Assembly (NCBI RefSeq): GCF_024305035.1
Contig: NZ_JAMWZB010000005.1
Coordinates: 62,001 to 126,000, forward strand
DNA from: Algoriphagus sp.
GTDB taxonomy: Bacteria; Bacteroidota; Bacteroidia; Cytophagales; Cyclobacteriaceae
Length of the DNA: 64,000 nucleotides
Reading direction: 5' to 3'
Notes under the pieces: generated by a model
Database searches by the model: none
Seen by the model: only the letters and a program-made list of their open reading frames with translations
Told to the model about the DNA's origin: nothing
In this document: positions 21,275-35,557 of the stretch, one piece after another
Numbering within the stretch: the first letter of the stretch is position 1
How the letters are laid out: each line of letters starts with the position of its first letter
Translations under genes and position numbers: made by a program

Positions 21275-21748
21275 ATGAACCCATCTGAGTTAGAAGTCCA
21301 ATTGCCCAATTTGAATCTTCCTGAAATTAAACCTCAGTTGAAAATGCGAGAAGGGAAACTATTGGTTTTTGATTCACTGCGGAAAAAAGACCTCATCCTA
21401 ACCCCTGAGGAATGGGTGAGACAACATTGGATTTCTTACCTACTAAATCAGCTTGACTATCCCAAGGGACTTGTTGCGTTGGAAAAGGGGTTAAAGTACA
21501 ACCAACTCATGAAGCGGACGGACATTTTGGTTTTTAATCAAAAAGGAGCCCCCTATTTGTTGATTGAATGCAAGGCTCCTCAAGTGGCAATCAACCAAAA
21601 AACCTTGGAACAAGCCTGCCTCTATCATAAAGAACTTCAGCCCGACTTTCTGATCCTGAGCAATGGTCTTCAGCATATTTCATTGGCTTGGAAAGCAGAA
21701 GAGCATCGCTTCGAACAACTTAATTATTTCCCTCAATCGCCGATTTAA
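21275..21748 (+). CDS. Stand-alone HsdR N-terminal-domain (PD-(D/E)xK-like) protein
   Basis: 157 aa. Matches the small type I restriction enzyme R protein N-terminal domain family common as a single gene in Bacteroidota. The PD-(D/E)xK nuclease-like core is visible: TDILVFNQKGAPYLLIECKAP, where Asp, Glu and Lys fit the metal-binding motif. It is followed by QACLYHKELQPDFLILSNGL. There is no helicase part and no HsdM or HsdS gene nearby, so it is not a complete restriction system. Its role is unknown; repair or nucleic-acid processing is possible. Confidence 0.8.
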   Translation: MNPSELEVQLPNLNLPEIKPQLKMREGKLLVFDSLRKKDLILTPEEWVRQHWISYLLNQLDYPKGLVALEKGLKYNQLMKRTDILVFNQKGAPYLLIECKAPQVAINQKTLEQACLYHKELQPDFLILSNGLQHISLAWKAEEHRFEQLNYFPQSPI

Positions 21749-21827: not shown

Positions 21828-22541
21828 ATGTCAACTCAACCCAAGAACACGCCCTGTGAACTCTGTGCCAGTCGGAAATATTCCATGTTTGCTGATTTGT
21901 CGGAACAGCAAGTTTGTACGATTTCGGATCATAAAAATCTTATCTCCCATCGAAAAGGCCAGATTTTATATTACGAAGGCACCAAGCCGCTTGGAATCTT
22001 CTGCATCAATGCAGGGGTGGTAAAGGTATATAAAATTGCATCCAACGGGAAAGAGCAAATTGTTCACCTGGCTCAAAAAGGTGATTTTCTCGGATATGCC
22101 GCACTTTTAGGGGAAGAGAACTACACCAATTCGGCCATGATCGTTGAAGATGCCAAAATTTGTTTCATTCCCAAAGAAGCATTTCTCAATACACTATTGA
22201 GTAATACCCAGTTTTTTAAACGTGTAACCAAACAACTCAGCCATGAATTGGGTGTCATGGAAGAAAAACTAACCGATGCTACCCAGAAGAGTATTCGAGA
22301 GCGGTTGGCTTACGTTTTACTCCATTTGGCAAGTACCTATGGAATTGAGGGGGGAGATAACCATAAAATCGATTTGGTGCTTAGTAGGGAGGAAATAGCA
22401 AGTATTGTGGGGACAGCGACAGAATCCATAATCCGACTTTTATCGGAATTCAAAAAAGACAATTTGATTGAGCTGGACGGTAAAAAAATAATCATTAAAG
22501 ATAAAAGAGGCCTGGCTAGACTTTCTGATTTTTATGCTTAA
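21828..22541 (+). CDS. Crp/Fnr-family regulator with FNR-like cysteines
   Basis: 237 aa. The N-terminal Cys cluster is C10-x2-C13 with C30. The cyclic-nucleotide-like beta-roll spans residues 35-125 (KGQILYYEG, GDFLGYAALLGEENY), with Cys112 in ICFIP at the place of the fourth FNR ligand. The C-terminal winged helix (LSREEIASIVGTATESIIRLL) keeps the Glu and Arg that read a TGA core. These features are compatible with an Fe-S oxygen/NO sensor, although the spacing differs from E. coli FNR. It is transcribed 36 bases before the rhodanese gene, so it may head or control the large operon downstream. Confidence 0.85.
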   Translation: MSTQPKNTPCELCASRKYSMFADLSEQQVCTISDHKNLISHRKGQILYYEGTKPLGIFCINAGVVKVYKIASNGKEQIVHLAQKGDFLGYAALLGEENYTNSAMIVEDAKICFIPKEAFLNTLLSNTQFFKRVTKQLSHELGVMEEKLTDATQKSIRERLAYVLLHLASTYGIEGGDNHKIDLVLSREEIASIVGTATESIIRLLSEFKKDNLIELDGKKIIIKDKRGLARLSDFYA

Positions 22542-22577: not shown

Positions 22578-23093
22578 ATGAATCTTTACCTAAGCCATTC
22601 ACCAGCTATTCACAAAGGGCTTTTTTCACTGGCCCTTTTTTTTATGACTCAAATGGTTTTTTCTCAGTCATTTGCCTATAAAGCCCTCCTGAAAACACTA
22701 TATGATGCTGATTTTCCAGTAGTAGAACCAGCAGAGATTGGTGATTTAGAGCGATTTCAACTCCTAGATACTCGGGAAAAGGAAGAATACGAGGTGAGCC
22801 ACATTCAAAGCGCCCGCTGGGTGGGCTTCGATTCGTTTTCTCTTGACCGAGTCAGTGACTTGGATAAAAATGAACCGGTTTTGGTTTATTGTACGGTCGG
22901 CGTCCGCTCTCAGGAAATCGGTAAAAAATTAAGGGAGGCGGGTTTTAAAAAAGTCTTCAATTTATATGGAGGGATCATTCATTGGGTAAATGAAGACAAT
23001 CCAGTTTATCGGAATGAACATAGGACCAATCAAGTTCATACCTTTTCCCGAACATGGGGGATTTGGCTTCAAAAAGGAGAAAAGGTGTATTGA
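22578..23093 (+). CDS. Secreted rhodanese-like domain protein
   Basis: 171 aa. A signal peptide (hydrophobic segment ending VFSQS at about residue 31) precedes one rhodanese domain. LLDTREKEEYEVSHIQSARWVGFDSF is the CH2A region, and the active-site loop CTVGVRSQEIG has the catalytic Cys at about residue 112. Rhodaneses carry persulfide sulfur. It is exported, so it probably acts in the periplasm. It lies 36 bases after the FNR-like gene and 125 before the DUF547 gene. Confidence 0.85.
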   Translation: MNLYLSHSPAIHKGLFSLALFFMTQMVFSQSFAYKALLKTLYDADFPVVEPAEIGDLERFQLLDTREKEEYEVSHIQSARWVGFDSFSLDRVSDLDKNEPVLVYCTVGVRSQEIGKKLREAGFKKVFNLYGGIIHWVNEDNPVYRNEHRTNQVHTFSRTWGIWLQKGEKVY

Positions 23094-23218
23094 GTGTGAT
23101 TCCGGCGAAATTAAATCCACAGGTTTTGAAAATGGAGATAGGCTTTGGCAAAGTGGCCAACAGTTATCTTAAAGACTCAAACCGGATTGGTAAATCTGTA
23201 CCTTTCTGATCTTCGTAA

Positions 23219-23995
23219 ATGATTAAAAAAATGAAAACACTAAAAATCACATTCACCATACTCATAGGGTTAATTTTCTTGGGCTGTACTTCCTCAACTT
23301 TGGGGATGGCAGGTACCAATCCCCCAAATCATCAACTCTGGGATCAATTGGTTAAAAAACATGTAAGGCCGGATGGATTGGTAGACTATCCGGGATTTAT
23401 TAAAGATAAAGTTCAATTGGAAAAATACCTGCAGTTGCTCAGTGAAAATGCACCCGATCGGAAAACATGGACTCGAGAAGAGCAATTGGCCTATTGGATA
23501 AATGCCTACAATGCCTTTACTGTGAAATTGATCTCAGATAATTACCCCGTAGAGAGTATTCGGGATTTGGGTCCCAAGCTCAAAATCCCGTTGATCAAGG
23601 ATGTATGGCATTACAAGTTTTTTAAAATTGGGGGAGAGGAATCCAGTCTGGATGAGATCGAACATGGAATTCTCCGAAAAGAATTTGAGGAGCCCCGGAT
23701 ACATTTTGCAATTAACTGTGCCTCTATTTCTTGCCCACGTCTGCACAATGAAGCGTTTGTGCCTGAAAAAATTAATGAGCAGCTGGACTTTGTTGCCCGC
23801 CAATTTATCAATGATCCCCAGCGAAATAAAATCGCAAAAGATCAGATTGAACTATCCTCTATATTTTCTTGGTTCAAAGGAGATTTTACTAAAAAAGGAA
23901 GTTTGATCGATTTTTTAAATCAATATAGCAAGGTTAAAATTTCTCCCAATGCGAGTATAAAACACCTGGATTATAACTGGAGTCTAAACGAATAA
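23219..23995 (+). CDS. DUF547 lipoprotein
   Basis: 258 aa with a lipoprotein signal (LIFLGC, Cys23). The DUF547 core is clear: VDYPGFIKDKVQLEKYLQLL, then AYWINAYNAFTVKLI, HYKFFKIGGEESSLDEIEHGILR and HFAINCASISCPRL. The conserved CASxSCP segment suggests a thiol- or metal-dependent role. I know of no established reaction. An internal Met four codons later is an alternative start. It is 29 bases before the FAD oxidoreductase; DUF547 genes are often next to redox and thiol genes. Confidence 0.88.
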   Translation: MIKKMKTLKITFTILIGLIFLGCTSSTLGMAGTNPPNHQLWDQLVKKHVRPDGLVDYPGFIKDKVQLEKYLQLLSENAPDRKTWTREEQLAYWINAYNAFTVKLISDNYPVESIRDLGPKLKIPLIKDVWHYKFFKIGGEESSLDEIEHGILRKEFEEPRIHFAINCASISCPRLHNEAFVPEKINEQLDFVARQFINDPQRNKIAKDQIELSSIFSWFKGDFTKKGSLIDFLNQYSKVKISPNASIKHLDYNWSLNE

Positions 23996-24024
23996 ACTTA
24001 ACTTGATTAGCTAAAATCAAATTC

Positions 24025-25380
24025 ATGTCAAACTCCAAGCATGTGGTCATTATAGGGAATGGGATATCAGGTATCACCTGTGCCAGGCATCTCCGAAAGC
24101 TCAATGACAGCGTTCGAATTACTGTGATTTCAGGAGAAAGCGAGTACTTTTTTTCCCGGACGGCACTGATGTATATCTACATGGGCCACATGAAGTTTGA
24201 ACATACTCAGCCCTATGAAAATTGGTTTTGGGAAAAGAATAGAATAGAATTAAAGCAAGCCTGGGTGAAGTCAGTTGATTTTTCTTCAAAGTCTTTACGT
24301 ATTGAGGATGGAAGTCAACTAAGTTATGATGAGCTGGTCATCGCTACTGGATCCAAACCGAACAAGTTTGGTTGGCGGGGACAGGATTTAAAAGGTGTTC
24401 AAGGCTTGTATTCCAAGCAGGACTTGGAACTCATGGAGGAAAACACCAAGTCGGGGGTAAATCATGCCGTTATCATTGGAGGTGGGTTGATTGGCATTGA
24501 AATGGCCGAAATGCTGGCCTATCGAAATATTTCTGTGACTTTTCTGGTTAGGGAAAGTGGATTTTGGAGAAATGTTTTACCGAAAGAGGAATCTGAATTG
24601 GTCGGAAGACATATTCAGGAGCATCATTTTGACTTGAAACTGGAAACTGAACTTGATGAAATCCTAGGTGATACATCGGGGAGAGTACGGGCTGTTCGGA
24701 CCAAAAGTGGTGAAGAAATCCCCTGTCAGTTTGTGGGATTAACCGCAGGCGTGAGTCCGAATGTGGATTTTTTAAAAGAGAGCGGTTTGGAAATCGGTAG
24801 AGGAATAAAAGTGGATTTATATTTCCGGACCAATATCGATCAGGTCTATGCCATCGGGGACTGTGCTGAATTTAACGAAGCTCCTGCTGAAGATAGAAAA
24901 ACCGTAGAGCAGGTTTGGTACACAGGCCGAATGCATGGGGAAACCCTGGCAAACAACCTGATTCATGAACCTGTTCCATACCGACCTGGGGTATGGTTTA
25001 ACTCTGCAAAATTTCTTGATATAGAATACCAAACCTATGGTCAAGTTCCCGCAGATTGGGATGGTGATCAGGTTAAAAGTTTCTATTGGGAACATGCAGG
25101 AGGAAAAATTTCTTTTCGGATGCTGATGCGCAGGGACGAGTCAATTTTGGGTGTGAATGTGTTTGGATTGAGAATGCGGCACGAATTTTTCGATCAGGCC
25201 ATCCGAGAAAACTGGTCAGCAGAGCAGGTGATTCGGAAATTGGAAAAAGCGAATTTTGATCCTGAGTTTTTTGCTCCTTACTATAAAGTTATCCAGGAGA
25301 AATTTGCCGCTGATTTTGATAAAAATATTCCGAAAGTCAAGCTTTCTTGGGTTCAACAATTATTTGGAGCGAGGGTATGA
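24025..25380 (+). CDS. FAD/NAD(P)-dependent pyridine nucleotide-disulfide-type oxidoreductase
   Basis: 451 aa. Two Rossmann folds are present: the FAD site HVVIIGNGISGITCARHL at the N-terminus, and the NAD(P)H site HAVIIGGGLIGIEMAEML near residue 155. FAD-domain motifs are ELVIATGSKPN and VYAIGDCAEF. There is no CxxxxC redox disulfide after the first Rossmann motif, so it resembles NADH-ferredoxin/rubredoxin reductases or the NirB N-terminal type rather than a disulfide reductase. Its stop overlaps the start of the polyferredoxin gene (ATGA), so electron transfer from NAD(P)H to the membrane Fe-S protein is a reasonable inference. Confidence 0.85.
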   Translation: MSNSKHVVIIGNGISGITCARHLRKLNDSVRITVISGESEYFFSRTALMYIYMGHMKFEHTQPYENWFWEKNRIELKQAWVKSVDFSSKSLRIEDGSQLSYDELVIATGSKPNKFGWRGQDLKGVQGLYSKQDLELMEENTKSGVNHAVIIGGGLIGIEMAEMLAYRNISVTFLVRESGFWRNVLPKEESELVGRHIQEHHFDLKLETELDEILGDTSGRVRAVRTKSGEEIPCQFVGLTAGVSPNVDFLKESGLEIGRGIKVDLYFRTNIDQVYAIGDCAEFNEAPAEDRKTVEQVWYTGRMHGETLANNLIHEPVPYRPGVWFNSAKFLDIEYQTYGQVPADWDGDQVKSFYWEHAGGKISFRMLMRRDESILGVNVFGLRMRHEFFDQAIRENWSAEQVIRKLEKANFDPEFFAPYYKVIQEKFAADFDKNIPKVKLSWVQQLFGARV

Positions 25381-26921
25381 AAAAATTACAAATAGTAGGT
25401 TTGGTTTTGTTTTTAGCTGGGATTAGCGCTTTTACGTTGATTCCCTTTCTGGGTACCTATGAGCTGGATTTTGAAAAGGTACAGCAGCAAACCAAAGAAA
25501 TCCACCAGGGTAAAATGGGAGATATTCTTCAACCCATGTTTGGAAAAGAATTCCCCTCCAGTTTTTCATTTCTCTCCGAGTTCAACACCCACTTTAACAG
25601 CTACAATGACCAGCTTAAGTCGGAGCAAAAATGGGATGAGGTAATTTGGGAGGATTACCGATTTCCATTGGCAAAAGCAGCCTTAAGCAGCCCCGTAAAA
25701 AATTCTCCTTGGCTATACTTCGGATTATCCATAGGATTGATGGTTTTGGGTGGATTGTTGTATAATCTACCTAAATATCAAGAAGAACCTGCGGGTATCA
25801 AGCATAACGGGATTTTCCATTCGGCCATGAAAAATAGAGGATGGTTGGGTATTTTGACCGGTTCGTATTTAATCCTTTTTTACATTATTTTATATTGGTT
25901 TCCAGCCTATTTGGTCAATCTCGTTTGGATGGTTGATCCTTTGAGTCAGGTTCTCTCAGGGAATTCAGCAAGTCAATGGTTTCTTTACGGCTTGATTTAT
26001 ACCTTGGCGATTTTGGTCATGGGAATCCGCATGTTCCGAAAATACAAAGGCAATGCCTATCAGCAGTTGCGAACAGCCTCGGTGATGTTTTTTCAGACGG
26101 CGTTTGCCTTTTTAATTCCTGAGATTCTGGTTTTACTCAATCAGCCTTACTTTGATTTTAAAAATATTTGGCCTTTGGATTATGATTTCTTTTATGATTA
26201 TCAAATTGAAACCTTTTTATCCAGTGGAGGAGTAGGGTTATTTATGCTGATCTGGGGAATTATGCTGATCCTAATTGCAGTTCCTGTATTCACTTATTTT
26301 TATGGAAAGCGCTGGTATTGTTCTTGGGTTTGCGGATGCGGGGGATTGGCAGAAACTGTCGGAGATCCCTATCGGCAGTTGTCTGATAAGTCTCTAAAAT
26401 CTTGGAAAATTGAACGTTACCTTGTTCATGGAGTTTTGGCCTTGGCCGTGGTAATGACCCTGTTGACCATTGCCAATTATTTTTCAGGCTTTTCCCTTTT
26501 GGGAAATGTAACCAACCAGCTACATTCGTTTTATGGATTTGCCATCGGTTCTGCTTTTGCAGGCGTAGTGGGTACGGGATTTTATCCGTTCATGGGGAAC
26601 CGGGTATGGTGTAGATTTGGTTGTCCACTTGCCGCCTACCTGGGAATCGTACAACGTTTCAAATCTCGGTTTCGGATCACCACCAACGGCGGGCAATGCA
26701 TTTCATGCGGCAATTGTTCCACCTATTGTGAAATGGGCATTGACGTGCGCTGGTATGCACAGCGGGGTCAAAACATTGTAAGATCCTCTTGTGTAGGTTG
26801 TGGGGTCTGTTCGGCAGTTTGTCCGCGAGGTGTCCTCAAGCTGGAAAACGGTCCTGAGGAAGGTCGGATCAATGATCTTCCCATTAGTATTGGAAATGAC
26901 TCGATTAAGTTGAATGCCTGA
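25377..26921 (+). CDS. Membrane 4Fe-4S polyferredoxin (NapH/YccM/CcoG-like)
   Basis: 514 aa from the ATG at 25377. About six to seven membrane helices. Cys motifs are WYCSWVCGCGG, a WCRFGCPL segment, and two ferredoxin clusters near the C-terminus: CISCGNCSTYC from residue 441 and CVGCGVCSAVCPRG from residue 472. This is the layout of NapH-type quinol or electron-transfer proteins. It overlaps the FAD oxidoreductase by 4 bases and the glycosyltransferase by 8, so the redox genes and the glycan genes are translationally coupled, which is unusual. Confidence 0.85.
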   Translation: MKKLQIVGLVLFLAGISAFTLIPFLGTYELDFEKVQQQTKEIHQGKMGDILQPMFGKEFPSSFSFLSEFNTHFNSYNDQLKSEQKWDEVIWEDYRFPLAKAALSSPVKNSPWLYFGLSIGLMVLGGLLYNLPKYQEEPAGIKHNGIFHSAMKNRGWLGILTGSYLILFYIILYWFPAYLVNLVWMVDPLSQVLSGNSASQWFLYGLIYTLAILVMGIRMFRKYKGNAYQQLRTASVMFFQTAFAFLIPEILVLLNQPYFDFKNIWPLDYDFFYDYQIETFLSSGGVGLFMLIWGIMLILIAVPVFTYFYGKRWYCSWVCGCGGLAETVGDPYRQLSDKSLKSWKIERYLVHGVLALAVVMTLLTIANYFSGFSLLGNVTNQLHSFYGFAIGSAFAGVVGTGFYPFMGNRVWCRFGCPLAAYLGIVQRFKSRFRITTNGGQCISCGNCSTYCEMGIDVRWYAQRGQNIVRSSCVGCGVCSAVCPRGVLKLENGPEEGRINDLPISIGNDSIKLNA

Positions 26922-28392
26922 TAGTTTACTTTATGTACTCCTAGTGATTTATTTGCTGGGAATGCTCTTTATTTTCGTTTATAGTCTGGCACAAGTTCAG
27001 CTTCTATTCAGCTTTTTGAGAGCCCGAAAATCACCTGAAAATTCGATTAAACTTTCACTTCAGGAATGGCCTTTGGTCACTGTTCAGCTGCCTATTTTTA
27101 ATGAATTATACGTAGCTGAGCGATTGATTGATGCGGTTGCGAAGCTGAACTATCCGGTCGAAAAACTGGAAATTCAAATCCTGGACGACAGCACAGATCA
27201 GACCGTGGATTTAATTCGCAATAAGCTCAAAAATTATCCCGAAATTGATTTTAATTACATTCATCGTAAAGATCGAACAGGTTTTAAAGCAGGAGCCCTG
27301 CGGGAGGGTTTAGCCAAGGCCCACGGTGAATTTATAGCAATCTTTGATTCCGATTTTATTCCGGATCCTGATTTTCTACGAAAGACGCTTCCCTTTTTTC
27401 ATTCCGATCAGGTCGGTATGGTCCAATCTCGCTGGACCCATCTTAATGAAAGTTATTCCCTATTGACCAAATTGCAAGCCTTTGCTTTGGATGCACATTT
27501 TCTAATTGAGCAAATTGGCCGAAATCATCAAGGAGCTTTTATCAATTTCAACGGTACCGGAGGGGTTTGGAGAAAATCCTGTATTCTTGATGCGGGAAAC
27601 TGGCATGATGATACGCTGACCGAGGATTTGGACCTGAGCTATCGGGCACAGAAAAAAGGGTGGAAATTTATATATCGGCCTGAAATCGAATCTCCGGCAG
27701 AGCTTCCTCCTATTATGTCTGCCATTAAGTCTCAGCAATTTCGATGGACTAAGGGAGGGGCAGAATGTGCTGTAAAACATGCCAAATCAGTTCTTGGACA
27801 AAAGCTTCCGTTACGTGTGAAATTTCATGCCATGGCTCACTTATTCAATAGCAGTATTTTTATTGCTATTTTATTAGTTAGTTTAAGCAGTATTGGAGTT
27901 TGGGCTTTGGGCGAAAAAGGCTTTCTTTCCCCCGATTGGCTCCGGATGGCCGCTGTATTTTTGATTGGTTTTGTGTTTATTGCTATGGTGTATTTGGTTT
28001 CCTATTGCTATGGGAAGCGTAGGTTTTTGAGGAGTTTGGCCGAGTCGGTAATCTATCTCCCACTTTTTCTGTCGGTATCAATGGGAATGGCCTTGCATAA
28101 TGCTCAAGCTGTATGGGAAGGGCTTTCTGGGAAAAAATCACCCTTTATTCGGACACCGAAATTTAACTTGCAAAGCGAGAAGCAAATCTTAAAATCTAAT
28201 CGCTATTTGTCGTTCAAAATGCCTTTCACAACCTGGATAGAAGGTTCTTTTGCGGTGATTTTTTCTTTGATGGTCTATCTAGCGTTTCAAACTGACAATT
28301 ACCTCTTTTTACCTTTTCATGCCATGTTGGCCTTTGGGTATGGACTTGTTTTTATTTCTTCCTTCAAATCTTACGCGCTTGGGAAATCCTGA
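26914..28392 (+). CDS. CslA/cellulose-synthase-like processive family 2 glycosyltransferase
   Basis: 492 aa. One N-terminal helix, a GT2 catalytic domain, then about four C-terminal helices (residues 310-490). Processive-synthase residues are all present: LDDSTD near residue 91, D145-S-D147, TEDLD with Asp238, and Q274-QFR-W278. The stretch SRWTHLNESYSLLTK, then FNGTGGVWR and QFRWTKGGAE, closely recalls plant CslA (mannan/glucomannan synthases). A beta-mannan- or glucan-like product is therefore possible. Substrate and acceptor are not proven by sequence. Confidence 0.85.
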   Translation: MPDSLLYVLLVIYLLGMLFIFVYSLAQVQLLFSFLRARKSPENSIKLSLQEWPLVTVQLPIFNELYVAERLIDAVAKLNYPVEKLEIQILDDSTDQTVDLIRNKLKNYPEIDFNYIHRKDRTGFKAGALREGLAKAHGEFIAIFDSDFIPDPDFLRKTLPFFHSDQVGMVQSRWTHLNESYSLLTKLQAFALDAHFLIEQIGRNHQGAFINFNGTGGVWRKSCILDAGNWHDDTLTEDLDLSYRAQKKGWKFIYRPEIESPAELPPIMSAIKSQQFRWTKGGAECAVKHAKSVLGQKLPLRVKFHAMAHLFNSSIFIAILLVSLSSIGVWALGEKGFLSPDWLRMAAVFLIGFVFIAMVYLVSYCYGKRRFLRSLAESVIYLPLFLSVSMGMALHNAQAVWEGLSGKKSPFIRTPKFNLQSEKQILKSNRYLSFKMPFTTWIEGSFAVIFSLMVYLAFQTDNYLFLPFHAMLAFGYGLVFISSFKSYALGKS

Positions 28393-28395
28393 TTT

Positions 28396-29088
28396 ATGAT
28401 TCAAAACCCTATCATAGACGTCATCATTCCGGCTTTTAATGAGGAAAAGTCCATCGCTAAAGTAATTGCAGAAATCCCCGATGTGGTTCGGTATATTATC
28501 GTAGCCAATAATAATTCCTCTGACCAAACGCATGAGGTGGCTACTCAAGCGGGTGCTATGGTCGTTTTTGAACCGCAAAAGGGCTATGGAAAAGCTTGTC
28601 TGACAGCCATGGACTGGATTAAGCAACAAGAAATTCAGCCCGATGTAGTCGTCTTTTTGGATGGTGATTACAGTGATTTTCCAGCCGAAATGTCAGATTT
28701 GATTTCTCCGATTAGGGATCAAAAAGCAGATTTGGTTATTGGTTCAAGAGCATTGGGAAATCGAGAGTCTGGATCGATGACATTCCCGCAGGTTTTTGGA
28801 AATTGGTTGGCCACGTCCTTGATGAACGCTATCCAAGGAGCCCGATTTTCTGATTTGGGACCCTTTCGGGCAATCCGATGGGAATCTTTGCTCGGGCTAA
28901 ACATGAAGGACCAAAATTTTGGTTGGACAATAGAAATGCAAATTAAAGCCCATAAGGCGGGTTTGCGTTATTTGGAGGTCCCTGTCAACTACCGAAAGCG
29001 AATTGGAGTTTCCAAAGTCAGCGGCACGGTCAAAGGAGTTATCGGAGCGGGATACAAAATAATTTTGACGATCTTTAAGTATTGGTAA
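28396..29088 (+). CDS. DPM1/DPG-like family 2 glycosyltransferase
   Basis: 230 aa. Probably transfers a hexose from a nucleotide sugar to polyprenyl phosphate. GT2 features are DVIIPAFNEEKSIAKVI, VANNNSSDQT, FLDGDYSDFP (metal-binding Asp pair) and SRALGNRESGSM; FNWT-like FGWTIEMQIKAHKAG and VPVNYRKRIGVSKVSGT are typical of dolichol-phosphate sugar synthases. There are no C-terminal membrane helices beyond one weak segment. It lies 3 bases after the CslA-like gene. Its lipid-linked product could feed the GT-C enzyme two genes downstream. Confidence 0.85.
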   Translation: MIQNPIIDVIIPAFNEEKSIAKVIAEIPDVVRYIIVANNNSSDQTHEVATQAGAMVVFEPQKGYGKACLTAMDWIKQQEIQPDVVVFLDGDYSDFPAEMSDLISPIRDQKADLVIGSRALGNRESGSMTFPQVFGNWLATSLMNAIQGARFSDLGPFRAIRWESLLGLNMKDQNFGWTIEMQIKAHKAGLRYLEVPVNYRKRIGVSKVSGTVKGVIGAGYKIILTIFKYW

Positions 29089-29107
29089 GACGTAAACTGG
29101 AAAGGAT

Positions 29108-30031
29108 ATGAAGGTTAAACTAAGTAGGCGATATCATCCCAAAATCAGTTTCCTTTCGCACTTAGCTGTGTGGATTTGTTTAGTTTTGACCTTATTTTCT
29201 TGTGGTCCTCAAGGTCGGGACGGAATCAATGAAGAAGAATTTGCGGGGTATTGGTACAAAGGACTTGCAGAAATCAATGTATTTGATTTGACTCAGGTAA
29301 GGTATGGACAGGAGCGCAATGGAAATGCGGTCATGATCTTTGTGACCGAAGATTTTTCGCGTCGCAAGCAAGTTAAACTCGATAATCCAAGCCAGGCCGG
29401 ATCTGATGCCCGCAAGGTAATGAAACTCAATATGACCCGTGATTTTGTCACAGGTGTTTATCCTTACCACACCATGCTTTCCGTTTTTACCCCGGTTAAT
29501 GATGAGGTGAATTCCTTTAAGCTTACCGCTTCGGTAACCGAGTGGTGTGGCCAAGCTTTTACCCAGATGAATTGGCGCAACTCTGGTTATCAGGTTCAGC
29601 TATTTTCGTATTTTGAATCAGAGGGTGATCAAGAATTGAAAATTGACGCCAAACCCGAGGATGAACTTTTTAACTTGATCCGCCTAAATCCTGATTTGAT
29701 TCCTACCGGGGATGTTCAATTGATTCCGAGTTTGGTTTATCAGCGGTTTTCGCATATTCCCTTGAAAGCTGAACGTGCGAAGATTTCCATTGAGCAGCGC
29801 AGCGATAATATCAGGGAATTAAGGGTTAACTATCCTTCCTTGAAAAGGATTTTGACCGTTCGTTTCAAGCAATTTTTTCCCTATGAAATTCTTTCTTGGG
29901 AAGAAGTGCAAACTAAGCCTAATGGAGACAAAGAAATCACCAAAGCGGTGAGGAAGAAACTAGAGCTTCTGGATTATTGGGAGAAAAATGATTCGGTGTT
30001 TGAGCCGCTTCGAAAGGACTTGGGCTTTTGA
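29108..30031 (+). CDS. Uncharacterised lipoprotein of the glycan operon
   Basis: 307 aa, family not recognised. A lipoprotein signal (LFSCG, Cys at about residue 34) follows a basic N-terminus. The mature protein has FAGYWYKGLAEINVFDLTQVRYG near its start and SVTEWCGQAFTQMNWRNSGYQ in the middle; the conserved-looking EWCGQ could be a functional site. It overlaps the GT-C gene (TTGA, 4 bases) and is downstream of the DPM1-like gene by 19. It probably works in the periplasm with the same pathway. Confidence 0.7.
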   Translation: MKVKLSRRYHPKISFLSHLAVWICLVLTLFSCGPQGRDGINEEEFAGYWYKGLAEINVFDLTQVRYGQERNGNAVMIFVTEDFSRRKQVKLDNPSQAGSDARKVMKLNMTRDFVTGVYPYHTMLSVFTPVNDEVNSFKLTASVTEWCGQAFTQMNWRNSGYQVQLFSYFESEGDQELKIDAKPEDELFNLIRLNPDLIPTGDVQLIPSLVYQRFSHIPLKAERAKISIEQRSDNIRELRVNYPSLKRILTVRFKQFFPYEILSWEEVQTKPNGDKEITKAVRKKLELLDYWEKNDSVFEPLRKDLGF

Positions 30032-31368
30032 GAACACCGGTAAAAGCCCTTTTGATTTCCAGCGCCTTGATGATGGCGATGGGGATTTATTTTTTAGGCT
30101 TTGAAGTCAGTAGAGCTGACTTTTTATGGGTTTTGGGTCTTTATTCTGGCCTTTTTGGGCTGATGGGTTTTTGGTATTTCTACTCGGCTAAGGAAATCGT
30201 CAACTGGAAGTTGATTTTCCTGCTTGGAATAGTTCTTCGGCTACTATTACTTCCTTCAATCCCGCTTTGGTCTGAGGATTTTGCTCGGTTTTTATGGGAT
30301 GGTGAGCTGCTAAATTTAGGATTCAACCCGTATACCCACAGTCCTCGGCAATGGATTCAGCTCCACTCCGAGCAATCTTCAGCTTATTTGGAGATGCTTT
30401 ATGGTAAAATGAATTCTCCGGATTATTATTCAGTTTACACCCCATTGAATCAGTTCTTTTTTTGGTTTGGGGCAAAGCTGGGTGGAGGTAGTTTGATCTC
30501 AGGCCTGTTGGTGATCCGATCGATATTGATTGTTGGGGAAGTTTTGGTTTTTTTTATACTCAAATCCCTGCTGTCCCAATGGGGGATGGATCTTCGAAAA
30601 TTAATTTTGTACTGGCTCAATCCTTTTCTTTTGTTTGAGGTCGTGGGGAACCTACATTTTGAAGGATTAGTTTTGCTTTTACTGCTTTGTTCCCTCTTGA
30701 ACTTAGGGAAGAACTATACTGGACTTTCTGGTTTGTTTTGGGGCCTGGCTATAGGATTAAAGTTGGTGCCCTTAATTTTAACTCCGGGCTTTTTGCGACT
30801 CGGCTCTGGACAGATTCGGTTTTTTGGATCTGCAGCCATTCTGATCATTTTTTTAATTTTTCCCTTACTGAAAGATCAATCTTGGATCCATTTGTCCCAA
30901 AGCGTGGCACTTTACCAAGGTAAATTCGAATTTAATGCCTCTGTTTATTACTTGGCTCGGGAGATTGGCTATTGGATAGAAGGCTATAATACGATTGCTT
31001 ACCTGACCAAAGGTTTGAGCGTGTTGACTGTTCTGTTGATCCTTACTTTAGTATTCAAAAAGAGACTCAATTCAACCTCTGATTGGGTTGAATTATGGGT
31101 AGGCTGCTATTGGATTTACCTCTTGCTGCAGCCGATAGTTCATCCCTGGTATTTAATTCCGGGAATAGGCCTAAGTATATTGACAAAGAAAGTTGGGTTT
31201 TTGGTATGGAGTTGGGCTATCATTTTTTCCTATCAAGCTTATGGAAATCAGAATTATTTGGAAGATCCGATCCTGTTGTTTGTGGAATATGGATTGGTTT
31301 GTCTGGGGTTGATCTATGATTACCGGCGGCATTATTTTACCTTACCCCTTCAATTCGTAAAAAAATGA
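30028..31368 (+). CDS. GT-C polyprenyl-phosphate-sugar-dependent glycosyltransferase-like membrane protein
   Basis: 446 aa with about 10-12 membrane helices. It starts at TTG 30028, overlapping the previous stop. The first periplasmic loop has WSEDFARFLWDGELLNLGFNPY, where the acidic residues correspond to the catalytic motif of GT-C mannosyltransferases. YYSVYTPLNQFFFW and a late HPWYLIPGIGLS are also typical. It would use a lipid-linked hexose, perhaps made by the DPM1-like enzyme encoded two genes upstream. Acceptor unknown. Confidence 0.78.
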   Translation: MRTPVKALLISSALMMAMGIYFLGFEVSRADFLWVLGLYSGLFGLMGFWYFYSAKEIVNWKLIFLLGIVLRLLLLPSIPLWSEDFARFLWDGELLNLGFNPYTHSPRQWIQLHSEQSSAYLEMLYGKMNSPDYYSVYTPLNQFFFWFGAKLGGGSLISGLLVIRSILIVGEVLVFFILKSLLSQWGMDLRKLILYWLNPFLLFEVVGNLHFEGLVLLLLLCSLLNLGKNYTGLSGLFWGLAIGLKLVPLILTPGFLRLGSGQIRFFGSAAILIIFLIFPLLKDQSWIHLSQSVALYQGKFEFNASVYYLAREIGYWIEGYNTIAYLTKGLSVLTVLLILTLVFKKRLNSTSDWVELWVGCYWIYLLLQPIVHPWYLIPGIGLSILTKKVGFLVWSWAIIFSYQAYGNQNYLEDPILLFVEYGLVCLGLIYDYRRHYFTLPLQFVKK

Positions 31369-32099
31369 AACGAGTTTATCTTCTTTTGATGGGAATACTT
31401 TTCGCAACTGTGATGTTGGTTTCCTGTCATCCTGCTCAAGAACGGAAGGCGATTTCACTGTTGGAAAAATCCGTGGCTGCTCATGGCGGTCAATCGGCCT
31501 GGGATAAATTAAAGGCCATCCATTTTTCAAAAAAGACAGCATTATTTGCCGCCGATGGTTCTCTTGAGGAAGAATTGGATCAGCGGATTGAGTTTCAGCT
31601 CAAGCCCAGGTTTAGCGGGAAAATGTCCTGGAATAGGGATTCGATTGCTCATGTATTGGAATATGACGGGGAAACGATGGGCTATGAGATGGCTGGAAAT
31701 CCAATTGAAAATCCGGATTTTCTCAGTGCAAAAAAGAAAGAATTTGATGCCGCCTGGTATGTGGTAGGAATGCCTTGGAAACTCCTAGAGGATCCATCAG
31801 CAAAGTTAACGTACAAAGGAATTCGGGAGACGCTTCTTGGGAAAGCGGAGGTTTTGGAGGTGGATTACGGTCCAGGCGCAGATCGGTGGTGGTATTATTT
31901 TGATCCAGAAAATCATCTGATGATTGGTAATGAAGTGCAACTAAAGGATCATCGAAGTCTGATCGAAAACTTGGATTTTGAGGTGGTCGACGGAATGATT
32001 TTTTATGGGGCCCGCCAAAGCTTTCGGGTGGATTCTCTGGGACAAAAATTATATTTACGCGCAAGGTATCAATACCAAGGTTATAAACTTATTCCCTAA
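31365..32099 (+). CDS. DUF6503-like lipoprotein, first of a paralogous pair
   Basis: 244 aa. Lipoprotein signal (VSCH, Cys at about residue 21), then a helix ISLLEKSVAAHGGQSAWDKL and a beta-rich body (FSGKMSWNRDSIAHVLEYDGE, WWYYFDPENHLMIGNEVQ). The AHGG segment and the overall layout recur in the next gene, so the two arose by duplication. The fold resembles outer-membrane lipoprotein-sorting (LolA/LolB-like) proteins, which would allow binding of a lipid or glycolipid. This role is inference. It overlaps the GT-C gene by 4 bases and touches the next gene with no gap. Confidence 0.72.
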   Translation: MKRVYLLLMGILFATVMLVSCHPAQERKAISLLEKSVAAHGGQSAWDKLKAIHFSKKTALFAADGSLEEELDQRIEFQLKPRFSGKMSWNRDSIAHVLEYDGETMGYEMAGNPIENPDFLSAKKKEFDAAWYVVGMPWKLLEDPSAKLTYKGIRETLLGKAEVLEVDYGPGADRWWYYFDPENHLMIGNEVQLKDHRSLIENLDFEVVDGMIFYGARQSFRVDSLGQKLYLRARYQYQGYKLIP

Positions 32100-32849
32100 A
32101 TGAAAAAACATCGCTTTCTATTTATTCTCTCCTTACTGGTGTTGGTTCATGCTTGTGATCGACCGTCAGAAGCTCAAAAAATTGTCGATTTGGCTATTGA
32201 AGCTCATGGAGGAGAGGCCTATGCAGAATCCAAGATTGAATTTGACTTTCGAGATATTCATTATCGAATCCAAAAGACCAAAGATTCTTTTGAGTACAGT
32301 CGGGAGTTTCAGGACTCATTGGGTCAGATCAAAGATGTGCTTAATAATTCAGGATTTGTCCGGACTCGAAATGGAGTAAAAGTGGATACCTTGACTGAAG
32401 AGCGAATAGGGGCATTTTCCAGGTCAGTCAATTCAGTGGCCTATTTCGCATTTTTGCCATACGGACTCAATGACCCTGCAGCTCGAAAACAATATCTGGG
32501 AGAAACTTCCTTAAATGGGGAAAGGTACCATTTGATTCGCGTGACTTTTGAGCAAGAAGGGGGCGGGGAGGATTTCGACGATGTATTTCTTTATTGGATC
32601 GGGGTAGCGGATTACTTTGTCGATTTTATGGCTTACAGCTATCATACCGATGGGGGAGGTGTCAGGTTGCGCGAAGTTTCAAAAGTGCAAGAAATTGGCG
32701 GGATTCGCTTCCAGAATTACCTGAATTTCAAACCTGAAAATAATGATACGCCCGTGGACCAAATGCAGGCGCTGTATGAGTCGGGGAAATTAGAATTGCT
32801 ATCAGAGATAAATTTGGAAAATATCAAGGTGAGTCCTTTAAATCGCTAA
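32100..32849 (+). CDS. DUF6503-like lipoprotein, second of a paralogous pair
   Basis: 249 aa. Lipoprotein signal (HACD, Cys at about residue 19), then AQKIVDLAIEAHGGEAYAES, which matches the same segment of the preceding protein. The body has FRDIHYRIQKTKDSFEYSREF, ARKQYLGETSLNGERYHLIRV and a long YWIGVADYFVDFMAYSYHTDGGGVR strand region. Divergence from its neighbour is large, so the duplication is old. It starts at the first base after the previous stop codon. Confidence 0.75.
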   Translation: MKKHRFLFILSLLVLVHACDRPSEAQKIVDLAIEAHGGEAYAESKIEFDFRDIHYRIQKTKDSFEYSREFQDSLGQIKDVLNNSGFVRTRNGVKVDTLTEERIGAFSRSVNSVAYFAFLPYGLNDPAARKQYLGETSLNGERYHLIRVTFEQEGGGEDFDDVFLYWIGVADYFVDFMAYSYHTDGGGVRLREVSKVQEIGGIRFQNYLNFKPENNDTPVDQMQALYESGKLELLSEINLENIKVSPLNR

Positions 32850-32851
32850 TT

Positions 32852-34069
32852 ATGAATCCTTTAAAACTGAGATTTGAGAATAGGAAAGGACTGGAGCTTT
32901 CTGCGCATTTGTACCAGCCACTAGATAGGGAAGCCAAATTCTACGCCATTTTTGCCCATTGTTTTACCTGTACTAAAAACCTATCTTCAGTAACCCGTAT
33001 TTGCACGGCCTTATCTCAGGAAGGAGTGGGGGTTTTGAGTTTTGATTTTACGGGGTTGGGTCTGAGCGAAGGGGAATTTCAAGAAAGCACTTTTTCTGCA
33101 AATATTTCGGATTTGGTGGACGCAGCAACTTACCTGGATGAAAATTATCAATCTCCCCAATTGATGATCGGACATTCACTTGGTGGAGCAGCCGTACTCT
33201 ATGCTTCCAGTGAATTAGAATCGGTTTCGGCAATAGCCACCATAGGTGCCCCAGCAGATCCGAGTCACGTCATTCATCTCTTTGAAGGGGAGTTAGACCA
33301 GCTCGAGAAAGGCCAAAAGGTAAAAGTAACTATTGGAGGAAGGCCTTTTGAGATCGATCGGCAGTTTGTGGATGATTTGGAGCAAAAACCTTTGGAGACA
33401 TTTTTAAAAAAAATGAAAAAGTCGCTCCTGATTTTGCATTCTCCCCAAGATCAAATCGTGGAAATCAATCAAGCTCAAGAAATCTATCAACGTGCTTTTC
33501 ACCCCAAAAGCTTCATTTCACTGGATGGGGCTGATCACCTGCTCAAAAGGGAAAAAGATGCAATCTATGTAGGTCAGGTAATCGCTTCCTGGAGTGCAAG
33601 ATATGTAAGCCATGAGGAGAAGAAAGAAAACCAAACCAAAGGAAATCCGGTGATGGTCAGGCTCAGTGAAGGGCCGGGGTACACCACAGAAATCAAAACT
33701 CCCCACCATCATTTAATAGCCGATGAACCGCTTGAGGTGGGAGGGCAGAATTTGGGTCCAAATCCCTACGATTTTTTGATGGCGTCCTTGGGTAGCTGTA
33801 CGGCCATGACCTTGAAAATGTACGCAGCTCGAAAAAAATGGGAACTGAAAGAAGTGCGTGTTTATCTTAATCATGAAAAAGTACACCTGATGGACTCTGA
33901 AAACGTGGAGGAGCCGAATGCAAAAGTTTCCCAATTTACCCGGATTTTAGAGCTTGAAGGCGACTTGGATCAAGTGCAGCGAAATCGATTATTGGAAATA
34001 GCCAACCGCTGTCCTGTACATCGTACGTTGGAGGAAGATATTTTGATCCAAACCTTGCTGGCTAAGTGA
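32852..34069 (+). CDS. Bifunctional alpha/beta hydrolase-OsmC family protein
   Basis: 405 aa. Residues 1-255 are an alpha/beta hydrolase: HCFTCTKNLSSV near the oxyanion position, nucleophile elbow GHSLGGAAVLYAS, a late Asp in HSPQDQIVE and His in DGADHLL. Residues 265-405 are an OsmC domain (GGQNLGPNPYDFLMASLGSCTAMTLKMYA, then ANRCPVHRTL) with the two Cys used by Ohr/OsmC peroxide reductases. The fusion itself is a known bacterial architecture. Esterase activity plus thiol-peroxide reduction is expected. It lies 2 bases after the DUF6503-like pair. Confidence 0.9.
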   Translation: MNPLKLRFENRKGLELSAHLYQPLDREAKFYAIFAHCFTCTKNLSSVTRICTALSQEGVGVLSFDFTGLGLSEGEFQESTFSANISDLVDAATYLDENYQSPQLMIGHSLGGAAVLYASSELESVSAIATIGAPADPSHVIHLFEGELDQLEKGQKVKVTIGGRPFEIDRQFVDDLEQKPLETFLKKMKKSLLILHSPQDQIVEINQAQEIYQRAFHPKSFISLDGADHLLKREKDAIYVGQVIASWSARYVSHEEKKENQTKGNPVMVRLSEGPGYTTEIKTPHHHLIADEPLEVGGQNLGPNPYDFLMASLGSCTAMTLKMYAARKKWELKEVRVYLNHEKVHLMDSENVEEPNAKVSQFTRILELEGDLDQVQRNRLLEIANRCPVHRTLEEDILIQTLLAK

Positions 34070-35109
34070 AATTACTGTTCAATAAATATCTTTTTAGCAG
34101 TTTAATCCTGATCTTTTTCTTTCTTGGAGTATGGGTTCTCGCTCCTGATTCAACCCCTGATTTTCCAGTAATTTCCCAGAAGCTCAAAGGCGTATGTTGG
34201 GTTGGGAGTCGACAAGCTCTACAAGGTGGTGAATTGGAATCTTTAGCTACCACTGGGGCAAATTCCATTTCCCAAACACCCTTTGGATGGCAAGCTGATC
34301 CGGGTAAACCTGAAATTCGCTGGGCCTTGGAAAATGATCGAATGTGGTGGGGGGAATCTGCAATAGGCTTAAAAACAACGCTGGATTCAGCAAAATCACA
34401 TCAGATTTCTTCCATGTTAAAACCTCATTTATGGGTACGAGGCGCATGGCCGGGAGAAGTTGAAATGAGTTCTGAGCAGGATTGGCAACAGTGGTTTGGA
34501 CTTTACCGGAAATTTATTGTAGACTACGCAAGACTTGCCGAGAAATCAGAGATGCCTTTTTTCTGTATCGGGACAGAACTGGAAAAGACCAGTCATCGTA
34601 CCCAAGATTGGAGAAAAATCATTTCGGCAGTCCGAGAGGTGTATTCCGGTAAAATCACCTATGCCGCAAATTTCACGGAGTATGAACAGATTCAATTTTG
34701 GTCAGAACTTGATTTTATTGGGATACAGGGATATTTTCCGTTGAGCGAGAAAAAAAAGCCAACCAAAAGGGAATTGATAAATGCTTGGAAAACCCCTATT
34801 TCCAATATAGAGGCAGTGGTGAACCAATTTCAAAAACCGGTGATTTTTACTGAAATCGGTTATTGTAACACCGAAGATGCGGCTAAGGAGCCATGGGTTT
34901 GGCCCAATGAGCGACATGCATCCAAGTTGTCCGAGTCTAGTCAAGCCCTTTGTTATGAAGCTTTCTTTGATGCTGTATGGACAAAGGAATGGTTAGCTGG
35001 GGTGTATTTTTGGAAATGGTATCCTGAGGGGAAAGGAAGGGATCCTGATTTTAGCCCTCAGGGCCTTCAAGCCGAGAAAGTAATGCGAACCTATTTTTCT
35101 CAGCCCTAA
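34066..35109 (+). CDS. GH113-like TIM-barrel glycoside hydrolase
   Basis: 347 aa from a GTG (34066) that overlaps the previous stop (GTGA). One N-terminal hydrophobic segment (FLGVWVLAP end) anchors or exports it. TIM-barrel features are KGVCWVGSRQAL, TGANSISQTPFGW, LKPHLWVRGAWPGE, FFCIGTELEK (acid/base Glu) and IFTEIGYCN (nucleophile Glu), which fit family GH113, known for beta-mannanases. It is the last gene of the long operon and could trim the polymer made by the CslA-like enzyme. Specificity is inferred. Confidence 0.78.
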   Translation: MKLLFNKYLFSSLILIFFFLGVWVLAPDSTPDFPVISQKLKGVCWVGSRQALQGGELESLATTGANSISQTPFGWQADPGKPEIRWALENDRMWWGESAIGLKTTLDSAKSHQISSMLKPHLWVRGAWPGEVEMSSEQDWQQWFGLYRKFIVDYARLAEKSEMPFFCIGTELEKTSHRTQDWRKIISAVREVYSGKITYAANFTEYEQIQFWSELDFIGIQGYFPLSEKKKPTKRELINAWKTPISNIEAVVNQFQKPVIFTEIGYCNTEDAAKEPWVWPNERHASKLSESSQALCYEAFFDAVWTKEWLAGVYFWKWYPEGKGRDPDFSPQGLQAEKVMRTYFSQP

Positions 35110-35212: not shown

Positions 35213-35425
35213 ATGAAAGCAAATATGGGAAGCACAGATCGAGGCCTGCGATTATTCGTAGCTGCAATACTTGTTGGATTGTTTTTTTCCAGTGTGCTGA
35301 CTGGAGCCCTGGGTATAGTTGCCCTGGTAGTTGCTACAGTTTTGACTTTGACGACTTTGATTGGCTTCTGTCCACTTTACACCTTACTGGGAATCAATAC
35401 TCGTTCGCCGCTGGCGAAGAGATAG
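35213..35425 (+). CDS. DUF2892 (YgaP-like) inner membrane protein
   Basis: 70 aa, full length for the family. MGSTDRGLRLFVAA is the typical opening, followed by two hydrophobic segments and CPLYTLLGINT, the conserved Cys-containing end. In other bacteria this domain is often fused to or beside rhodaneses. It probably responds to redox or nitrosative conditions, given the Fnr-type site before it. Monocistronic, with a terminator 26 bases after the stop. Confidence 0.88.
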   Translation: MKANMGSTDRGLRLFVAAILVGLFFSSVLTGALGIVALVVATVLTLTTLIGFCPLYTLLGINTRSPLAKR

Positions 35426-35450
35426 CTAATGCGTAATAGTTTTGGGAAAA

Positions 35451-35479
35451 GCCGGGGGCAGTAGCTTCCGGTTTTTTTT
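35451..35479 (+). terminator. Terminator after the DUF2892 gene
   Basis: Two CCGG arms and inner GC/GC pairs bridged by G-U pairs form a stem around an AGTA loop, followed by eight T. Confidence 0.7.
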
Positions 35480-35557
35480 AGGGTTTTTTGGCCTGAATAG
35501 GCAAAACTTCTTTAAAAATTTTATTTATTAGACTTTTTAAACCCAAAATTTATAAAA

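Follow-up and report, generated by a model that had tools for sequence, protein, structure and literature searches.

Gene content of the operon

A stretch of 64,000 nucleotides from an Algoriphagus genome (NCBI RefSeq assembly GCF_024305035.1, contig NZ_JAMWZB010000005.1, positions 62001-126000; contig C45 of genome G000 in our numbering) was analysed and is referred to here as the window. Between positions 22578 and 35109 it carries twelve closely spaced genes, all on the + strand, with a redox half followed by glycosyltransferase and accessory genes. Every open reading frame (ORF) was present. With the polyferredoxin start placed at 25377, the eleven junctions comprise gaps of 125 (rhodanese-DUF547), 29 (DUF547-FAD oxidoreductase), 3 (between the two family 2 glycosyltransferases, GT2a and GT2b), 19 (GT2b-lipoprotein), 0 and 2 bases and five overlaps. 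The ORF coordinates thus confirm the tight packing on one strand, with two gaps above 20 bases and a maximum of 125, that a preliminary description of this DNA had reported. Pfam and NCBIfam matches also bore out the gene labels given there for the rhodanese, DUF547, FAD (flavin adenine dinucleotide) oxidoreductase, polyferredoxin, both GT2, DUF6503, hydrolase-OsmC and GH113 genes; the GT-C gene matched GT87 only weakly (29 bits, cut-off 25), gene 9 reached DUF6503 barely at the cut-off, and gene 7 is a lipoprotein without a known family.

Gene 1 (22578..23093) encodes an exported rhodanese (PF00581) with the active-site loop CTVGVRS and an N-terminus that looks, by eye, like a signal peptide. 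It is a member of NCBIfam NF045521, "rhoda_near_glyco" (190.1 bits, curated cut-off 145). The CxxGxRS loop is kept in 58 of 59 labelled rhodanese relatives; this and the motif counts below span the labelled ORFs of the loci fetched from relatives, a set that counts some genomes twice (L077 and L085, for example, seem to be the same contig). Gene 2 (23219..23995) encodes a DUF547 lipoprotein (PF04784, 104 bits) with a lipobox-like FLGC. The closest structures to the product of gene 3 (24025..25380; PF07992, Pyr_redox_2) are ferredoxin/rubredoxin reductases and CoA-disulfide reductases. The stretch that we take to be the place of the redox cysteine in disulfide reductases reads SRTALMY in 87 of 90 labelled relatives, suggesting that gene 3 is an NAD(P)H:ferredoxin-reductase type enzyme.

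Gene 4 (25377..26921) encodes a membrane polyferredoxin (Fd; Fer4_5, Fer4_21) with two transmembrane Cys motifs and two [4Fe-4S] motifs. These cysteines are invariant in an alignment of 12 sequences, and the motif CSWVCGCGG is found in 94 of 95 labelled Fd relatives. The likely start is an ATG near 25377, which makes this gene and the FAD gene overlap by four bases, and it is placed in the same way in 9 of 11 related loci; the TTG start of the mechanical ORF list was rejected, since relatives support the ATG. Among named proteins its best relatives come from Algoriphagus, with identities of up to 85 percent, followed by those of Cyclobacterium, Belliella and others. As in the NapH/MauN polyferredoxins, the transmembrane Cys motifs come before the two [4Fe-4S] motifs, and the tail is NapH-like. 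However, Fd scored 69.6 bits against a cut-off of 213 with the NapH/MauN model TIGR02163, and its steady partner here is the FAD reductase.

GT2a, the product of gene 5 (26914..28392; PF13641), is a membrane GT2 of the processive type. Its DxD, TED and QQxRW motifs are present in 69-72 of 73 labelled relatives. The nearest structures are BcsA cellulose synthases (E-value 7e-29), and the scores against TIGR03937 (PgaC; 117.8 bits, cut-off 422) and TIGR03030 (bacterial cellulose synthase; 102.4 bits, cut-off 699) fall short of both cut-offs. In a protein search with the GT2a alignment, in which 8000 candidates were scored, the 120 matches listed carried names such as "cellulose synthase family protein" and "glycosyltransferase" and none that gives a function. 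Gene 6 (28396..29088; PF00535) encodes GT2b, a soluble DPM1/AglJ-like protein predicted to be a polyprenyl-phosphate sugar synthase. Its best match among nine models was AglJ (TIGR04182; 123.3 bits, below the cut-off of 325), and its nearest structures are GpgS and dolichol-phosphate mannose synthase (DPMS). Gene 7 (29108..30031) encodes a lipoprotein for which the library scans gave zero Pfam or NCBIfam matches; its EWCG motif is invariant in 21 aligned sequences.

The GT-C membrane glycosyltransferase of gene 8 (30028..31368) passed the gathering score of GT87 weakly (PF09594, 29.2 bits against 25, residues 160-361) and gave a weak profile match to glycosylphosphatidylinositol (GPI) mannosyltransferase 1 (E-value 5e-4). 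This protein has about 445 residues in the window as against about 700 in some Algoriphagus (L077:6666-8771, L080, L085, L086) and in genomes of family f59. The structures nearest to GT2b and the profile match of GT-C fit the earlier proposal that a DPM1-like enzyme and a GT-C enzyme form a lipid-linked sugar pathway, and they recall the pairing of dolichol-phosphate mannose synthase (DPM1/AglJ) with a GT-C mannosyltransferase (PIG-M, GT87). The window differs from that system in that GT2b is under the AglJ cut-off and redox partners are present in the operon.

The last four genes appear to be accessory or trimming functions. Genes 9 (31365..32099) and 10 (32100..32849) encode lipoproteins assigned by sequence to DUF6503 only (PF20113; 23.1 bits, barely above the cut-off of 22.9, and a clear 119.9 bits). 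Gene 11 (32852..34069) is a variable accessory, a hydrolase-OsmC fusion (PF12146, PF02566). Gene 12 (34066..35109) belongs to the GH113 glycoside hydrolases (PF22612, 177.7 bits); GTELE was found in 24 and TExG[YF] in 29 of 30 labelled relatives, and their glutamates are presumably the functional acidic motifs of GH113.

Conservation of the core and its association with arsenosugar genes

Eighty named loci were fetched by way of Fd, of which 76 had an intact Fd ORF (L101, L103, L116 and L134 were dropped, an intact Fd ORF being absent in ORF calling); in 49 of the 76, each flank extends for about 7 kb or more. They are best matches and form an uneven, Algoriphagus-rich sample, labelled with our own profiles. 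Among the 49 long-flanked loci the FAD gene was found in 44, GT2a in 35, GT2b in 30, GT-C in 29 and all three glycosyltransferases in 27; DUF547 was found in 30, rhodanese in 16, GH113 in 14 and a TIGR04282-like gene in 12. At least one of ArsS, ArsM, TIGR04283, purine-nucleoside phosphorylase and TIGR04169 was present in nine.

The conservation of gene order expected in the preliminary description held in part. The full set of twelve in order was seen in three of ten complete Algoriphagus loci (L079, L083, L089; two with an extra ORF inside); gene 9 is present in 8, gene 10 in 10, gene 11 in 5 and gene 12 in 7 of the ten. A single twelve-gene unit kept across the phylum was therefore rejected. 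What recurs, far outside the genus and across Cytophagales and Flavobacteriia, is a core of FAD reductase, Fd, GT2b, GT2a and GT-C, and because of this recurrence the grouping is more than chance. Algoriphagus, Cyclobacterium and Belliella have the order FAD-Fd-GT2a-GT2b-lipoprotein-GT-C; in other lineages, including metagenome-assembled genomes labelled Cyclobacteriaceae, it is mostly FAD-Fd-GT2b-GT2a-GT-C. In seven loci (L107, L122, L123, L124, L138, L141, L156) a set of ATP-binding-cassette-type binding protein, permease and ATPase lies 5' of FAD-Fd; one binding protein and one ATPase were named by Pfam and the permease by eye.

The rhodanese was also followed separately. NF045521 was above its cut-off in 26 of 296 genomes of the phylum, and 13 of the 25 other above-cut-off stretches of 20 kb (L039-L043, L059-L078) held at least one of FAD, Fd, GT2a, GT2b and GT-C. 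No core gene was found in 15 stretches around below-cut-off matches (L044-L058). NF045521 was given up as the only search handle, and Fd and GT2a were used instead.

Co-occurrence was determined in 178 genomes, one even sample of the class, with each marker searched at strict E-values. Positives were GT2a 39, Fd 35, GT-C 37, TIGR04282 41, rhodanese 28, ArsS 29, TIGR04283 11, sugar-type ArsM 16 and the control NosZ 64. GT2a was shared with Fd in 33 genomes, with GT-C in 35 and with TIGR04282 in 36; Fd occurred with TIGR04282 in 34, and the rhodanese with Fd in 27 of its 28 genomes and with GT2a in 26. ArsS was accompanied by TIGR04282 in 29 of 29 and by GT2a in 27 of 29 genomes, and by ArsM in 16. 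NosZ showed no association with any of the eight markers (overlap with GT2a 17, 14.0 expected; Fd 14, 12.6 expected; ArsS 10, 10.4 expected). At the level of genera, GT2a occurred in 30 and Fd in 28, with 26 in common, and families f1, f54 and f70 are among those with both positive and negative genomes. These three measures served as a rough check on whether phylogeny or genome size could account for all of the co-occurrence.

GT2b adjoins GT2a on the same strand in 26 of the 39 GT2a genomes. In the 33 genomes with GT2a and Fd, the two lie within 15 kb in 17 and more than 15 kb apart or on different contigs in 16, a count of separation that includes contig breaks; in G072 and G368 the core genes are far apart on one contig. 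That the pair is shared by 16 genomes in which it is apart speaks against mere hitch-hiking. The earlier view that the redox and the glycan halves belong together is thus supported.

The link with arsenosugar genes was unexpected and does not figure in the preliminary description: in relatives the core tends to travel with them. According to PMC12159101, oxo-arsenosugars are produced by several cyanobacteria, with a radical SAM enzyme adenosylating the arsenic during their synthesis, and a source cited there names ArsS in its title; PMC5552862 groups the ArsMs of cyanobacteria with those of bacteroidetes. NCBI names already record TIGR04282 and TIGR04283 as arsenosugar enzymes and the nearness of the NF045521 rhodanese, of which gene 1 is a member, to glycosyl genes; the latter name is silent on the redox pair, GT2a, GT-C and the co-occurrence. 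No paper describing the redox-glycosyl core was found in searches of open-licence PubMed Central papers. In Synechococcus elongatus, used as a control, ArsS, TIGR04282 and TIGR04283 were above their cut-offs and no NF045521 rhodanese was.

The genome of the window itself has ArsS, sugar-type ArsM, TIGR04282 and TIGR04283 together above their cut-offs on contig 15 (G000:C15), the sole place of above-threshold arsenosugar marker matches in this genome. The locus there (L159) holds a TIGR04169-like gene, ArsS, TIGR04282, ArsM, a gene for a DUF6134 protein, TIGR04283 and a glyoxalase-type gene, with a GAPDH-like gene, named by eye, on the opposite strand. TIGR04167 (ArsS) had no match among the 20 window proteins scanned, and its single match in the genome is the one on contig 15.

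In relatives the same families lie beside or among the core genes. In 5 of the 39 GT2a genomes (G306, G316, G322, G384, G413) ArsM adjoins GT2a on the same strand; the five come from four families, are all ArsS-positive and fall into two groups in the GT2a tree. In G316 one strand reads, 5' to 3', FAD, one ORF, Fd, GT2a, ArsM, GT2b, GT-C and ArsS, so that arsenosugar and core genes are interleaved. They are likewise interleaved in G322 (ArsS, TIGR04282, DUF547, TIGR04283, FAD, Fd, GT2a, ArsM, other ORFs, GT2b, a gene-7-like lipoprotein and GT-C), except for one opposite-strand DUF547 gene in between; among the ORFs between ArsM and GT2b, one is on the other strand. Rhodanese, arsenosugar genes and core occur together at L061, L068 (a stretch without ArsS) and L125, and arsenosugar genes with the core and no labelled rhodanese at L117, L148 and L158. 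The neighbours of the rhodanese above cut-off are ArsS TIGR04167 and TIGR04169 at L061, and TIGR04282, TIGR04283, sugar-type ArsM NF038099 and purine-nucleoside phosphorylase at L068; both loci are from family f7, taken for Flavobacteriaceae.

Of 32 genomes with GT2a, Fd, GT-C and TIGR04282, 23 are ArsS-positive. By eye, the ArsS-negative genomes are scattered over several places of the GT2a tree, in which many forks are weak. Since ArsS genomes nearly always have the core and the reverse does not hold, either the core has an arsenic-free job to which the arsenosugar genes were added, or these were lost several times; in both cases the core and the arsenosugar genes would share one biochemical neighbourhood.

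Two further observations were made on the arsenosugar loci. At an E-value of 1e-60, no sugar-type ArsM (NF038099) was found in 13 of the 29 ArsS genomes, so another methyltransferase may serve there. An OlsE-like fatty-acid hydroxylase is encoded near the core or inside arsenosugar loci at L061 (PF04116), L112, L117 and L157.

A putative envelope pathway and its alternatives

We read the core as a redox-coupled membrane glycosylation pathway that is a regular partner of the ArsM/ArsS arsenosugar genes and TIGR04282, and put the probability of this reading at roughly 0.55. Its basis is gene content, co-occurrence and co-location; from these we infer what each enzyme catalyses, which way the electrons flow and what is made. 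The window operon would be the membrane half of a Bacteroidota pathway. A sugar would be activated by TIGR04282, encoded on contig 15, a CofC-like nucleotidyl- or glycosyltransferase; GT2b would load it onto polyprenyl phosphate and GT-C would hand it over on the outer side of the membrane, where it could be joined to the product of the processive-type GT2a, which would make the acceptor or a polymer, with GH113 trimming. NAD(P)H would supply electrons to the FAD reductase, from which the membrane polyferredoxin would carry them to the periplasmic side; there the exported rhodanese and the DUF547 lipoprotein may act. The electrons might be used for a reduction in the periplasm or within the membrane, which could be a sulfur transfer carried out by the rhodanese; the fatty-acid-hydroxylase family protein of a few clusters (PF04116 in L061, similar in L112, L117 and L157) would also require electrons. 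Given the regular partnership with ArsM/ArsS and TIGR04282, the likeliest product would be a glycolipid or short glycan able to take up an (arseno)sugar. A more specific version is tentative and, to us, somewhat doubtful: an envelope pathway of Bacteroidota that places an arsenosugar, or an arsenic-free counterpart where ArsS is missing, onto a membrane glycolipid or glycan via polyprenyl phosphate, with a dedicated transmembrane electron chain.

Several findings weigh against the partnership with arsenosugar genes, and some of them favour a pathway for an envelope glycolipid or glycan of general use, equipped with a redox step of its own and yielding an arsenic-free product, which the arsenosugar genes would join through the common TIGR04282 or through envelope-lipid traits of the lifestyle. 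None of the four arsenosugar markers is in the window itself. Nine of the 32 genomes with the core and TIGR04282 are without ArsS, including two of the three sampled from the window's genus, and in six ArsS-negative genomes (G076, G111, G304, G335, G343, G374) no arsenosugar gene was labelled beside TIGR04282. ArsS is sporadic in the genus (27 of 59 genomes; 23 of 39 at ≥90% complete and ≤5% contaminated), of the 27 genomes that have both GT2a and ArsS only five have them within 15 kb of each other, and G366 has ArsS, ArsM, TIGR04282 and TIGR04283 without the core. Twelve of the 25 above-cut-off rhodanese stretches are without a core gene in 20 kb. A single origin of the ArsM-GT2a adjacency would be compatible with the GT2a tree. 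Lone markers occur (GT2a in G041, G375 and G436; TIGR04282 in G325, G390 and G424), as does GT-C alone in G301, and the hypergeometric p values (e.g. 2e-27 for GT2a-Fd) ignore kinship and overstate independence. This arsenic-free pathway is a serious contender, to which we give distinctly less than an even chance: GT2a is found in nearly all ArsS genomes, and the direct adjacency of ArsM and GT2a in five genomes is not what a loose link of lifestyle predicts.

In another reading, the rhodanese, DUF547, FAD and Fd genes would form a unit for thiol/redox stress that is unrelated to the glycan genes and adjacent to them by chance in Algoriphagus. FAD-Fd or Fd stands without any glycosyltransferase gene within 10 kb in 14 of the 49 long-flanked loci, and there may be an internal promoter or operator ahead of DUF547 in several Algoriphagus loci. 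The sharing of 33 genomes by GT2a and Fd and their adjacency in Flavobacteriia in a different gene order make chance adjacency the least probable of the explanations. Scarcely better placed, and still improbable, is the model of the preliminary description, in which a CslA-like GT2a makes a beta-mannan, GH113 trims it and LolA-like lipoproteins carry it. GT2a does have processive GT2 motifs, and GH113 is clear, with both acidic motifs in most relatives and a place near Fd in 14 of 49 loci. However, no CslA model or structure was among the matches of GT2a, of which PgaC, CelA and BcsA were nearest and far under the equivalog cut-offs, and the DUF6503 genes were labelled near Fd solely in Algoriphagus-type loci and L145.

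These genes bear on the route of arsenosugars into lipids and on whether heterotrophic bacteria contribute to marine arsenosugars and arsenolipids. That a defined partner set (rhodanese, FAD-Fd, GT2a, GT2b, GT-C, TIGR04282) accompanies ArsS in many families of Bacteroidota makes the question of arsenosugar lipids testable. If an arsenosugar is indeed installed on an envelope glycoconjugate, bacteria would have a surface glycoconjugate that contains arsenic and has genes dedicated to it. Since TIGR04282 is present with the core in nine ArsS-negative genomes, the role of this family, named for arsenosugars, may extend to a broader sugar pathway.

Borders of the operon

Two genes at the borders had been overlooked. 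A Crp/Fnr-family regulator (21828..22541, +; PF00027, PF13545), a candidate regulator of the operon, ends 36 bp 5' of the rhodanese gene and directly precedes it in Algoriphagus and near-kin loci. Gene 13 (35213..35425, +) encodes a YgaP-like membrane protein of 70 residues (PF11127, 69 bits) and lies immediately 5' of a terminator-like hairpin (35440..35483, +; a 20-pair stem then a T run, a consensus match only), the likely end of the operon. ORFs of 69-76 residues at the place of gene 13 in L079, L084, L085 and L086 were matched by size and position alone. The promoter scan was at background level (32 found, 32.3 expected) and is therefore uninformative on transcripts.

In several Algoriphagus loci the gap between rhodanese and DUF547 (23094-23218 in the window) shows, by eye, a palindrome-like GTC-N(8-9)-GAC motif and a TAnnTTTG-like element; L085 and L086 do not show them clearly. 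The gap may thus hold an internal promoter or operator. A solitary protein with a type I restriction HSDR_N domain (21275-21748, +) is encoded, in conserved synteny, 5' of the Crp/Fnr gene in Algoriphagus-type loci.

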